From the NCBI RefSeq assembly GCF_038049935.1, contig NZ_CP145886.1:260001-307500 (forward strand): 47,500 nt of DNA. The letters run 5' to 3'. The notes beneath the pieces were generated by a model. The model ran no database searches. It was not told the origin of the DNA and saw only the letters and a list, made by a program, of their open reading frames with translations. The translations under genes and the position numbers were made by a program. This DNA comes from Rossellomorea sp. y25. Lineage in GTDB: Bacteria; Bacillota; Bacilli; Bacillales; Bacillaceae_B. This document shows positions 33,019 through 43,336 of this stretch, in pieces (position 1 is the stretch's first letter; the number at the start of each line of letters is the position of its first letter).

Positions 33019-33059
33019 ACCCGATAAAAAAGATGGGGAAAATAATCAGATCAAAAGGC

Positions 33060-33300
33060 TTTCGTAAAGATTGTTGCTTTTAACATAAGGGTCTGCTTGA
33101 GCTCTGCCAATCGGTATGTGCTGGATGGTAAGGTGAACTGCTCCGCTTTCAGGGGACGTTCGGGCGAGCCTACTCAGCTTAGCCGAACGGGGTCTCGGCA
33201 CGCCCGAACTTCCGCAAGAGTCTACGCAGTTACCCACACCATCTTTAAAAGATTTTTTGTGGCAGAGCTTAAGGTGTCTGAGAAAAACAATGTAACTAAA
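33060..33300. repeat. composite intergenic repeat, copy 1, part A (long imperfect palindrome)
   Basis: The outer stem is GCTCTGCCA (33101-33109) / TGGCAGAGC (33260-33268); the inner arms start GATGGTAAGG (33124) and end CACACCATC (33243). Inside is a GC-rich core with TGCTCCGCTTTC and GGTCTCGGCACGCCCG. The same arrangement recurs at 42840-43060, including the lead-in TTGTTGCTTTTAACATAAG. The outer stem keeps full pairing in both copies although one pair differs. No coding potential is supported. Confidence 0.85.
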
Positions 33301-33720
33301 AATAGAATGCTTCTTCTTTAAAAGGAGAATAATCTTTCCTCACCTTATATGAGGTTGTTTGCTAAAAATTCTTGTTTTTCTCTCTTTCTAATTAGGATTT
33401 ATGCTCAGAAAGTTGATTCTCGCTGCAGGATGATCGACTCCTGCGGGAATAGCTGGACAGTACTAAAAGCGGAGGGGCTTTGCCCAGGGGCGACAAGCAT
33501 AAGACGAGTCTGCCGGAAAGGCGCTCTTTGCCTTTTTGGCAGACTTGGCTTATGACCTCGAGCCCCTAAGCCCCGTAGCTGGACAGGTGAGACCCCGGAG
33601 GCGCAGCCGAGGAGGCTCACCGCCAGCCCCGCGGAAAGCGAGCATCCTGGAGCGGAAATCAACTACTACATTCTTCCTTAAGATAACCACAAACTTTGCG
33701 AAAAGTGGCAATCAAAATAA
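33301..33720. repeat. composite intergenic repeat, copy 1, part B with a nested hairpin insertion
   Basis: Bounded by AGTTGATT (33411-33418) and AATCAACT (33657-33664). The GC-rich interior reads GACTCCTGCGGGAATAGCTG ... GGTGAGACCCCGGAGGCGC ... GCGGAAAGCGAGCATCCTGG. It is interrupted at 33461-33575 by a 115-bp hairpin element (stem blocks AGGGGC/GCCCCT, CATAAG/CTTATG, AGTCTGCC/GGCAGACT), flanked by the 11-bp direct repeat TAGCTGGACAG (33450-33460 and 33576-33586). The corresponding site in copy 2 has the whole GC-rich part missing. Confidence 0.8.
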
Positions 33721-39181: not shown

Positions 39182-39212
39182 TGATGTCAAATTCATAATA
39201 GCGTTCGTTAGC

Positions 39213-39367
39213 ATCCTTCGTATATCCTCGATAATACGGTTCGAAAGTATCTACCCGGTCACCTTAAATGACTGGACTATGAAGGCAGTGTTCTAATTTG
39301 ACATACGTGTATGCAAAAAAACTAGAATTCTGCCTTTTTTTAAGGCGGAGTCTGGTTTTTTTTATTT
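39213..39367 (+). promoter_or_regulatory. purine (guanine-class) riboswitch with terminator controlling guaA
   Basis: The aptamer runs from about 39213 to 39285: P1 arms CCTTCGTA / TATGAAGG, the ATATCCTCGATAATACGG block, P2 loop and J2/3 AGTATCTACCCGG, then TAAATGACTGGACTATG. The J3/1 residue that reads the ligand is C in GACTAT, specifying guanine or hypoxanthine rather than adenine. The expression platform is a long imperfect hairpin (39312-39356) followed by T-runs, so the ligand should turn guaA off. Confidence 0.92.
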
Positions 39368-41190: not shown

Positions 41191-41221
41191 AGTACTGTAA
41201 TTATAACAAAACATTATAAAA

Positions 41222-41397
41222 GTATTACGTCGTATAATTTCGGGAATAGGGCCCGAGCGTTTCTACCAAGCTACCGTAAATGGCTTGACTACGAGGTGAT
41301 TGAGAATAGGACCGGGGAACATTTTTTATCTCCATTTACCTATTCATCATGATCTTAACAGTCAAAGCCTTGAACTCTGGTAGTTCGAGGCTTTTTT
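41222..41397 (+). promoter_or_regulatory. purine (guanine-class) riboswitch with terminator controlling pbuG
   Basis: Aptamer about 41222-41300: GTATAATTTCGGGAATAGGG, then CCGAGCGTTTCTACCAAGC, TACCGTAAATGGCTTGACTA and CGAGGTGAT. The specificity base is C in TTGACTACG, so guanine or hypoxanthine. The terminator AAGCCTTGAACT / TAGTTCGAGGCTT followed by seven T lies at about 41364-41397. The ligand should shut off uptake. Confidence 0.95.
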
Positions 41398-42794: not shown

Positions 42795-42824
42795 AAGCTG
42801 GTCTCTCGCAGATCAGCTTTTTCT
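42795..42824 (+). terminator. terminator of pbuG
   Basis: AAGCTGGTC (42795-42803) / GATCAGCTT (42811-42819) with one G-T pair, followed by a T-rich tail. Confidence 0.75.
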
Positions 42825-42839
42825 TATTCGCTCTTTTCT

Positions 42840-43250
42840 CAAAGCTTGTTGCTTTTAACATAAGTTCTGCAAGGCTCTGTCAATTAGCGTGTGCTAGATG
42901 GTGAGGGGAACTGCTCCGCTTTCCGCGGACGTTCGGCCGAGCCTCCTCAGCTACGCTTCCGGGGTCTCGGCACGCCCGTACTTCCGCAGGAGTCTGCGCA
43001 GTTCCCCTCACCATCTTTAACAGAATCTATGTGACAGAGCTTCAAGGTGTACCATAAAACAAAATAACTAGTATAAATAATTCTTCTTCCTTAAGATAAA
43101 CAATCTCTTTTTAACTTAAATGAGATTGTTTGCTAGAAAGCTTCTTATAATTGTTTTCGATTAAGGATTCATGCTCAGAAAGTTGATTGGAGCGGAAAAC
43201 AACTAGTACTTTCTCTTCTACAATAGCAAAAAATTTACGAAAAGAGCCTT
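42840..43250. repeat. composite intergenic repeat, copy 2
   Basis: Part A: outer stem GCTCTGTCA (42874-42882) / TGACAGAGC (43032-43040); inner stem GATGGTGAGGGGAACTGC (42897-42914) / GCAGTTCCCCTCACCATC (42998-43015), a perfect 18 bp. Middle: AAACAATCTC / GAGATTGTTT hairpin at about 43106-43139. Part B is reduced to AGTTGATTGGAGCGGAAAAC (43181-43200), where copy 1 has about 230 bp more. The tail ACGAAAAGAG is also shared. The whole unit follows copy 1 in the same order and orientation. Confidence 0.85.
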
Positions 43251-43336
43251 CTTATTTAATAAAGGAAAAGTGTGAAACATAAATAGAGGAGTCGGAGGGA
43301 GATTTAGAGAAGATATACGTATAGAGTAAGTATGAA

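Follow-up and report, generated by a model that had tools for sequence, protein, structure and literature searches.

Two palindrome-bearing intergenic repeats of Rossellomorea sp. y25 are non-autonomous transposable elements with a probable IS1595-type partner

Introduction

REP and REPIN palindromes, which are linked to RAYT transposases, are not known to form insertions bounded by terminal inverted repeats (TIRs) with a fixed target duplication, and the element described here departs from them in this respect. The bcr repeats of the Bacillus cereus group are also intergenic and partly palindromic sequences of Bacillaceae, but their ends and the length of their duplication appear to differ from those reported below. 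Prokaryotic MITEs are characterised, in PMC3852290, as short, non-coding elements with TIRs and target duplications, whose ends resemble those of an autonomous partner. According to PMC8101967, members of the IS1595 family of insertion sequences (IS) usually duplicate 8 bp of target and encode a zinc ribbon together with a DDE domain; the same paper gives GG ends for the Merlin elements, which are related to this family.

Here, we analysed a stretch of 47,500 nucleotides of Rossellomorea sp. y25 (contig NZ_CP145886.1, positions 260,001 to 307,500 of the forward strand), referred to as the window. It holds two copies of a composite, palindrome-bearing intergenic repeat, for which a preliminary description had considered either a structured noncoding RNA or a mobile element.

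Results

Both copies are non-autonomous transposable elements (MITEs), bounded at each end by a TIR of about 24 bp (GGCTCTTTTCGCAAAGATTGTTGC). Copy 1 covers 33057..33709 on the plus strand (653 bp), with a left TIR at 33057..33077 (plus strand), 3 nt below the consensus length, and a right TIR at 33686..33709 (minus strand). Copy 2 covers 42829..43248 on the plus strand (420 bp), with TIRs at 42829..42852 (plus) and 43225..43248 (minus). The preliminary description had placed the copies at 33060-33720 and 42840-43250, with their parts in a common order; the order stands, but the limits had to be moved to those given here, and the TIRs had been missed. Mapping of the flanks for target-site duplications, which had also been proposed there, revealed an 8-bp duplication directly at the TIR ends of both copies. 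It is perfect in copy 2, with TTCTTATT on the left (42821..42828) and on the right (43249..43256), and decayed to 7/8 in copy 1, where GATCAAAA at 33049..33056 faces AATCAAAA at 33710..33717, as read from the relatives' sites and by flank comparison; no strand is assigned to these duplications.

The first internal palindrome, P1, lies at 33101..33268 in copy 1 and 42874..43040 in copy 2 (both plus strand). Its 9-bp outer stem reads GCTCTGCCA/TGGCAGAGC in copy 1 (33101-33109/33260-33268) and GCTCTGTCA/TGACAGAGC in copy 2 (42874-42882/43032-43040), and we confirm that one pair differs on both strands, C-G in copy 1 and T-A in copy 2, with pairing intact. A second palindrome, P2 (GTTGATT ... AATCAAC), lies at 33412..33663 of copy 1 (plus strand), where it is swollen by extra hairpins; copy 2 retains, by eye, a remnant of 22 nt at 43182..43203 (plus strand). 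Between P1 and P2, copy 2 carries a small A/T-rich hairpin at 43098..43131 (plus strand; 14-nt arms, 93% complementary), and copy 1 has a similar stretch by eye, which the hairpin search did not list there. A second hairpin region in both copies, as first reported, can thus be upheld only in part: if P2 was meant, copy 2 has just the remnant, and if the A/T-rich hairpin was meant, its counterpart in copy 1 is one seen by eye. The sole listed open reading frame of at least 80 aa within the two copies (33405-33662, minus strand, 85 aa, TTG start) overlaps P2.

The neighbours of copy 1 encode nicotinate phosphoribosyltransferase and NAD synthase, and those of copy 2 a xanthine/uracil-type permease and a PRD/CAT-RBD antiterminator; in agreement with the first account, the genes on either side of each copy are co-directional. 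By eye, the insertion point of copy 2 is the T-tract of a terminator-like hairpin (42795-42828). The window also holds two purine riboswitch aptamers on the plus strand, at 39198-39299 and 41210-41311, one of them shortly upstream of the permease gene at 41349.

Close relatives reveal both insertion sites in their empty state. In the base-by-base reading, which covered five loci at the place of copy 1 and six at that of copy 2 (the remaining loci were scored for P1 and TIR only), the copy 1 site was empty in all five close relatives compared (G014, G032, G013, G010 and G029). G014 reads CAGATCAAAAAAATG there, with the target present once; in the other four the site is empty but diverged, the target itself being kept in G014 only. 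The copy 2 site is empty in G014, G032, G010 and G013, with TTCTTATT present once in three of them and one change within it in G010, and is filled in G029. Among 29 other loci of the same genus at each place, P1 was found at none for copy 1 and in G029 alone for copy 2; at one of the loci, L417, the stretch upstream is missing. One TIR-like match each was seen at two more distant loci, L399 and L400, and L399 may, by eye, hold a decayed piece of P1, for which reason the insertion may be older than it appears.

The insertion of G029 (L395) at the copy 2 place has its P2 intact. Since this relative keeps P2 at the same place, we infer that P2 of copy 2 was lost between the short direct repeats GGAGCGGAA. 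The G029 element and copy 2 have, by eye, two end changes in common and are therefore probably the same insertion. If so, the window copy would have lost P2 later, and the empty relatives would have lost the element exactly, or the lineages would have exchanged DNA. G029 is filled at this place while G014, a nearer relative, is empty.

The two copies are members of a large population. With copy 2 as query, the genome of Rossellomorea sp. y25 yielded at least 80 matching pieces (40 of 60 candidates scored), some of which are not whole elements. Side-by-side reading of 17 loci of this genome revealed that the fuller copies start with GGCTCTTTTCGCAAAGATTGTTG or a variant and finish with its inverse. 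A 23-base TIR pattern matched this genome 34 times when up to 3 mismatches were allowed, and the reversed control pattern not once; at up to 2 mismatches the pattern was present in 40 of 61 genomes, including this one (reversed control 0/61). In 17 TIR pairs from the genome, compiled by hand as a permissive scan (7 substitutions) gave many false pairs, the duplication was 8/8 in ten, 7/8 in three and 6/8 or less in four, while shuffled flanks gave a mean of 0.61 perfect duplications and a maximum of 4 in 2000 trials.

A TIR-pattern scan of named genome contigs gave at least 120 stretches; the 80 loci listed belong to Bacillus, Rossellomorea, Peribacillus, Cytobacillus, Metabacillus, Fictibacillus, Sutcliffiella and others. 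The 78 TIR pairs from the loci listed span 60-609 bp, and their longest internal stop-free stretch is 94 codons. After one pair had been removed by an edge filter, 41 of the remaining 77, all from other genomes and picked by TIR alone among the matches listed, displayed a perfect 8-bp duplication (shuffle mean 0.67, maximum 4 in 2000), and other lengths (5-7 and 9-12) gave 0-2 perfect duplications each in the same pairs. Target composition was counted for 40 of the 41 perfectly duplicated elements: positions 1, 2, 7 and 8 are A or T alone, and the G+C content is 0.09, compared with 0.35 over the adjoining 50 bases. Hairpins of -8 kcal/mol or stronger adjoin 19 of the 40 targets and 7 of 40 positions at a distance (rank test p = 0.12), and we do not claim a preference of the element for terminator sites.

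Viral contigs gave no exact match to the TIR pattern. A plasmid search with the whole of copy 2 gave one partial match covering 24% of the query (L430), with two TIR-like matches. A very large expansion was found in genome G028, with 324 TIR-pattern matches at up to 3 mismatches (control 0); the stretches read there contain short elements of about 160-195 bp plus longer ones. Wide TIR spacings in this genome were considered as autonomous elements and rejected, the stretches read being separate MITEs around other sequence or a tandem array. The array (L088:1501-3011) consists of a TIR pair that, instead of palindromes, encloses a 53-bp unit repeated 23.4 times in tandem (TRF, 88% matches), and its flanks, AAATAAAA and AATAAAAA, are 6/8 alike. 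In the open-licence PMC literature, the TIR string had no match in the text of papers, which does not show its absence from print in general; the palindrome string matched works that are, by their titles, on other subjects, and no title or abstract start named this element.

A candidate partner was found in the IS1595 family. A profile search (PF12762) of 20 mostly TIR-rich genomes gave matches in five, and a matching IS in two of them only, G024 and G009. In both, a transposase gene is bounded by the TIRs described here and by perfect duplications (1482 bp with TTTAGATA and 1665 bp with AAAAAGAA, respectively), and both proteins are transposases of the IS1595 family that carry an IS1/IS1595 zinc ribbon. 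A second gene in G009 and the gene in G011 have another TIR type, and no TIR was found for the G010 gene; G028, despite its 324 TIR matches, had no IS1595 match. The L251 protein scored 59.1 bits with PF12762 (cut-off 27) and 208.9 bits with NF033547 (cut-off 75). Its N-terminal zinc ribbon is of the IS1/IS1595 type (NF050000, 51.4 bits, cut-off 28), the score with PF12760 being 20.7 bits, under the cut-off of 25.4.

A wider search (E of 1e-30 or better), which covered 397 genomes of the order, found relatives in 91; the genome of Rossellomorea sp. y25 had no matching IS1595-family transposase in either this or the PF12762 search. The same ends and duplications accompany the IS1595 transposase genes of L251, L252 and 12 of the 21 further loci of the close subgroup that were fetched, these 21 having 57-93% identity and the 12 carrying TIR pairs of the GGCTSTTTTC type. 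Nine of the 23 close-subgroup loci had no TIR pair in the stretch read. Among nine more distant loci (41-46% identity), six have ends of the GGCTnTGTTA type, one of them with a poor duplication. All 14 partner ISs have a WWNNNNWW target, and the duplication is 8/8 in 13 and 7/8 in one, these 13 perfect duplications not being independent evidence, as the search for IS ends required GG and rewarded target duplications. Small frames accompany the transposase gene in some of these elements: L252, an autonomous element, has a lipoprotein-like frame at 2138-2536 without a Pfam or NCBIfam match, and L265 and L270 show small extra frames by eye.

In a tree of 25 transposases, the distant sibling subgroup splits off with a support of 1.000. 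The first TIR type was found for 11 proteins, the second for three and none for 11, and neither group has the other's type; where a TIR was found, its type follows the transposase clade. The consensus of the MITE ends of the genome, built from 16 of the 17 pairs (copy 1 excluded, and one end of one pair misplaced by two bases), agrees with that of the partners at 24 of 26 positions and with that of the sibling subgroup at 15 of 26. By blastn, the likeness between MITE and IS consists of end pieces of up to 35 bp plus two weak matches further inside, one of 39 bp (E 0.028) and one of 18 bp (E 0.35). Because it is confined to the ends apart from these two matches, it does not show that the MITE descends from the IS through internal deletion.

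The palindromes have a distribution of their own. P1 of copy 2, reversed, aligned with the minimal P2 of locus L002 with a local score of 84, against 39 at most in 200 shuffles, and the two palindromes are hence inverted relatives. With P2 as query, plasmids of Priestia, Peribacillus, Bacillus, Paenibacillus, Niallia and Cytobacillus gave 35 matching places, spread over 15 records, with no TIR nearby at the seven places read; phages gave no match. In Peribacillus (L424:400-905) the palindrome adjoins a gene for an IS1182-family transposase. Among the plasmid records H17-H23, those of Peribacillus muralis and Bacillus badius (H19, H20) have similar flanks, and in Cytobacillus firmus, Peribacillus asahii and Arthrobacter citreus (H21-H23) the homologous stretch ends before the palindrome. 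On a Priestia plasmid, the annotation of a 'hypothetical protein' (WP_080754389.1; L425:702-884) overlies a palindrome (701-826) and is possibly that of a spurious gene.

These findings raise the question of whether the palindromes, as REP-like units, are themselves what moves, the TIRs being secondary. The plasmid copies in six genera, the neighbourhood of the IS1182-family gene and the nine of 40 P1 copies without a left TIR speak for it. Against it, the left TIR precedes P1 by 33-51 bp in the other 31 of these 40 copies (14 other genomes, picked among the matches listed, up to 7 substitutions), and in the window the duplicated target lies at the TIR ends and not at the palindrome ends, so that we regard this explanation as unlikely. 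A further reading is less likely than not: the G+C-rich palindrome (GTTGATT ... AATCAAC, about 126 bp) may be a second module that spreads independently and is nested in unrelated transposable elements, occurring twice, inverted, in IS1595-type MITEs and upstream of the IS1182-family transposase gene in Peribacillus. If true, palindrome and MITE would form a two-layer parasite, with the palindrome carried by many kinds of element.

The preliminary description had taken the paired change in the outer stem as a pointer to selection on structure, and a structured noncoding or cis-regulatory RNA maintained by selection on base pairing was weighed accordingly. Folding of the copies is strong, with z-scores of -3.85 (copy 1) and -8.01 (copy 2) relative to dinucleotide shuffles, none of 200 being as good in either case. 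For the comparison of P1, 59 copies were aligned, 19 from the genome itself and 40 from 14 genomes of the same genus, picked among the matches listed. At the pair in question, 54 copies have T-A and copy 1 alone has C-G; the remaining four have T-G, C-A (in a stem with a 3-nt gap), A-A and a gap, so one-sided states do occur. Changes on both sides were found in 5 of 2227 cells (38 pairs), in five different copies, which is no excess over partners slid by 1-3 columns (3-8). Three other measures were higher in register than in the slid controls: the covariation score was 0.038 (slid, 0.009-0.021), further pair types numbered 22 (slid, 8-17) and 97.5% of cells were paired (slid, 34-46%).

A smaller set of 20 copies from the genome, from which 10 of 30 loci had been excluded as partial, poorly matching or repeats of another locus, displayed the same tendency, with a covariation score of 0.066 against 0.019-0.035 and 17 pair types against 7-12. 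Both-side cells numbered 7 in register and 0-6 when slid, but 6 of the 7 come from a single divergent copy, L026, which is part of this set and was excluded from the larger one. All five measures exceeded column shuffles in both sets, none of 500 shuffles being as high (both-side cells 5 against 0.3 in 59 copies and 7 against 0.9 in 20 copies); such shuffles, however, ignore kinship, and a structure drawn from these very copies tends to beat its slid versions without any selection. The RNAalifold covariation term of +0.65 gives no support. A search of the whole window revealed no Rfam family at gathering score at either copy, the best sub-threshold match in copy 1 reaching 25.9 bits against a cut-off of 93, and relatives live without these insertions. 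We therefore hold a selected RNA structure to be quite improbable, though the excess of covariation score and pair types over the slid controls raises its odds slightly. The compensatory pair is genuine, but in our reading it is an isolated event with one-sided intermediates and not evidence of selection; arm-to-arm correction by template switching could be another route to such a paired change.

A further explanation keeps the MITE and replaces its enzyme by one of another family with 8-bp duplications, ISL3 or IS6; the partner families searched were these two and IS1595. ISL3 came into consideration by its GGCTCT ends and 8-bp duplications. Copies in relatives can also start with GGCTCT, L109 has an 8-bp A/T-rich duplication, and three genomes of the same genus (G008, G009 and G013) have both ISL3 and TIR matches. 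However, ISL3 had no match in the genome of Rossellomorea sp. y25, none of the 30 loci fetched (further ISL3 matches exist) had the TIR pair, and the genomes G003, G022 and G027, also of the same genus, contain ISL3 without any TIR match at 2 mismatches; with matching TIRs absent, ISL3 was dropped. IS6-type matches were found in 4 of 20 genomes, one of them over the cut-off, and none of six loci had a TIR pair around the gene (L258 has a short pair elsewhere), on which ground this family was dropped as well. A partner from either family is thus very unlikely.

The preliminary description had named, as what would speak against its reading, a lack of covariation and of transcripts together with an origin of the two copies by one local duplication. 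Covariation is indeed not clear; but although the copies lie 9.8 kb apart in the same direction, a local origin can be dismissed because their empty sites in relatives are separate, and their target duplications and gene neighbours also differ, with many more copies around the chromosome.

Discussion

The copies of the window combine TIRs, a fixed 8-bp duplication, the absence of a transposase inside and an autonomous partner with matching ends, the latter in related genomes. The suggestion of a mobile palindromic element that needs transposases elsewhere is strongly supported by the TIRs, the 8-bp duplications, the empty sites and the IS1595-family match. We are highly confident, from sequence comparison, that both copies are MITE insertions that would be served by the transposase of an IS1595-type IS acting in trans. 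From the empty sites and duplications we infer this mobility in trans, and the enzyme that moved the element was very probably that of related IS1595-type elements. The evidence on movement consists of traces in the sequences.

A mechanism of the following kind may be proposed. An IS1595-type IS would supply the transposase, which would bind the TIRs and cut the element; insertion would follow at an A/T-rich WWNNNNWW site, duplicated to 8 bp in the process. The large G+C-rich palindromes would be cargo, and mutation by way of G-U intermediates, or template switching, could produce matching changes in their arms with no need for selection on RNA. The copies of Rossellomorea sp. y25 are probably relics, or await the arrival of an IS, because no such IS was found in this genome.

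With these results, a recurring and unexplained intergenic feature of Bacillus and its relatives becomes an element whose ends are defined, whose targets follow a rule and for which a candidate enzyme can be named, and its mobility can now be tested directly. They also indicate that, when two palindromic copies differ by a compensatory change, this speaks only weakly for a functional RNA, and that a wider set of copies should be inspected first.

In comparison with known systems, the REP and REPIN palindromes with their RAYT transposases resemble the element of the window in their many intergenic palindrome copies, while the latter has long TIRs and 8-bp target duplications. Prokaryotic MITEs are alike in shortness, lack of coding, TIRs, duplications, many copies and a likeness to the partner that lies mainly at the ends; in contrast to them, the cargo here consists of two large G+C-rich palindromes that are inverted relatives of each other. 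With the IS1595 family (DDE_Tnp_IS1595; related to eukaryotic Merlin), the MITEs of the window have the 8-bp target duplication and the GG-ended TIRs in common. Relatives of this family with the same end type encode a zinc-ribbon and DDE transposase, whereas the window copies are without a transposase and have the ends alone in common with them.
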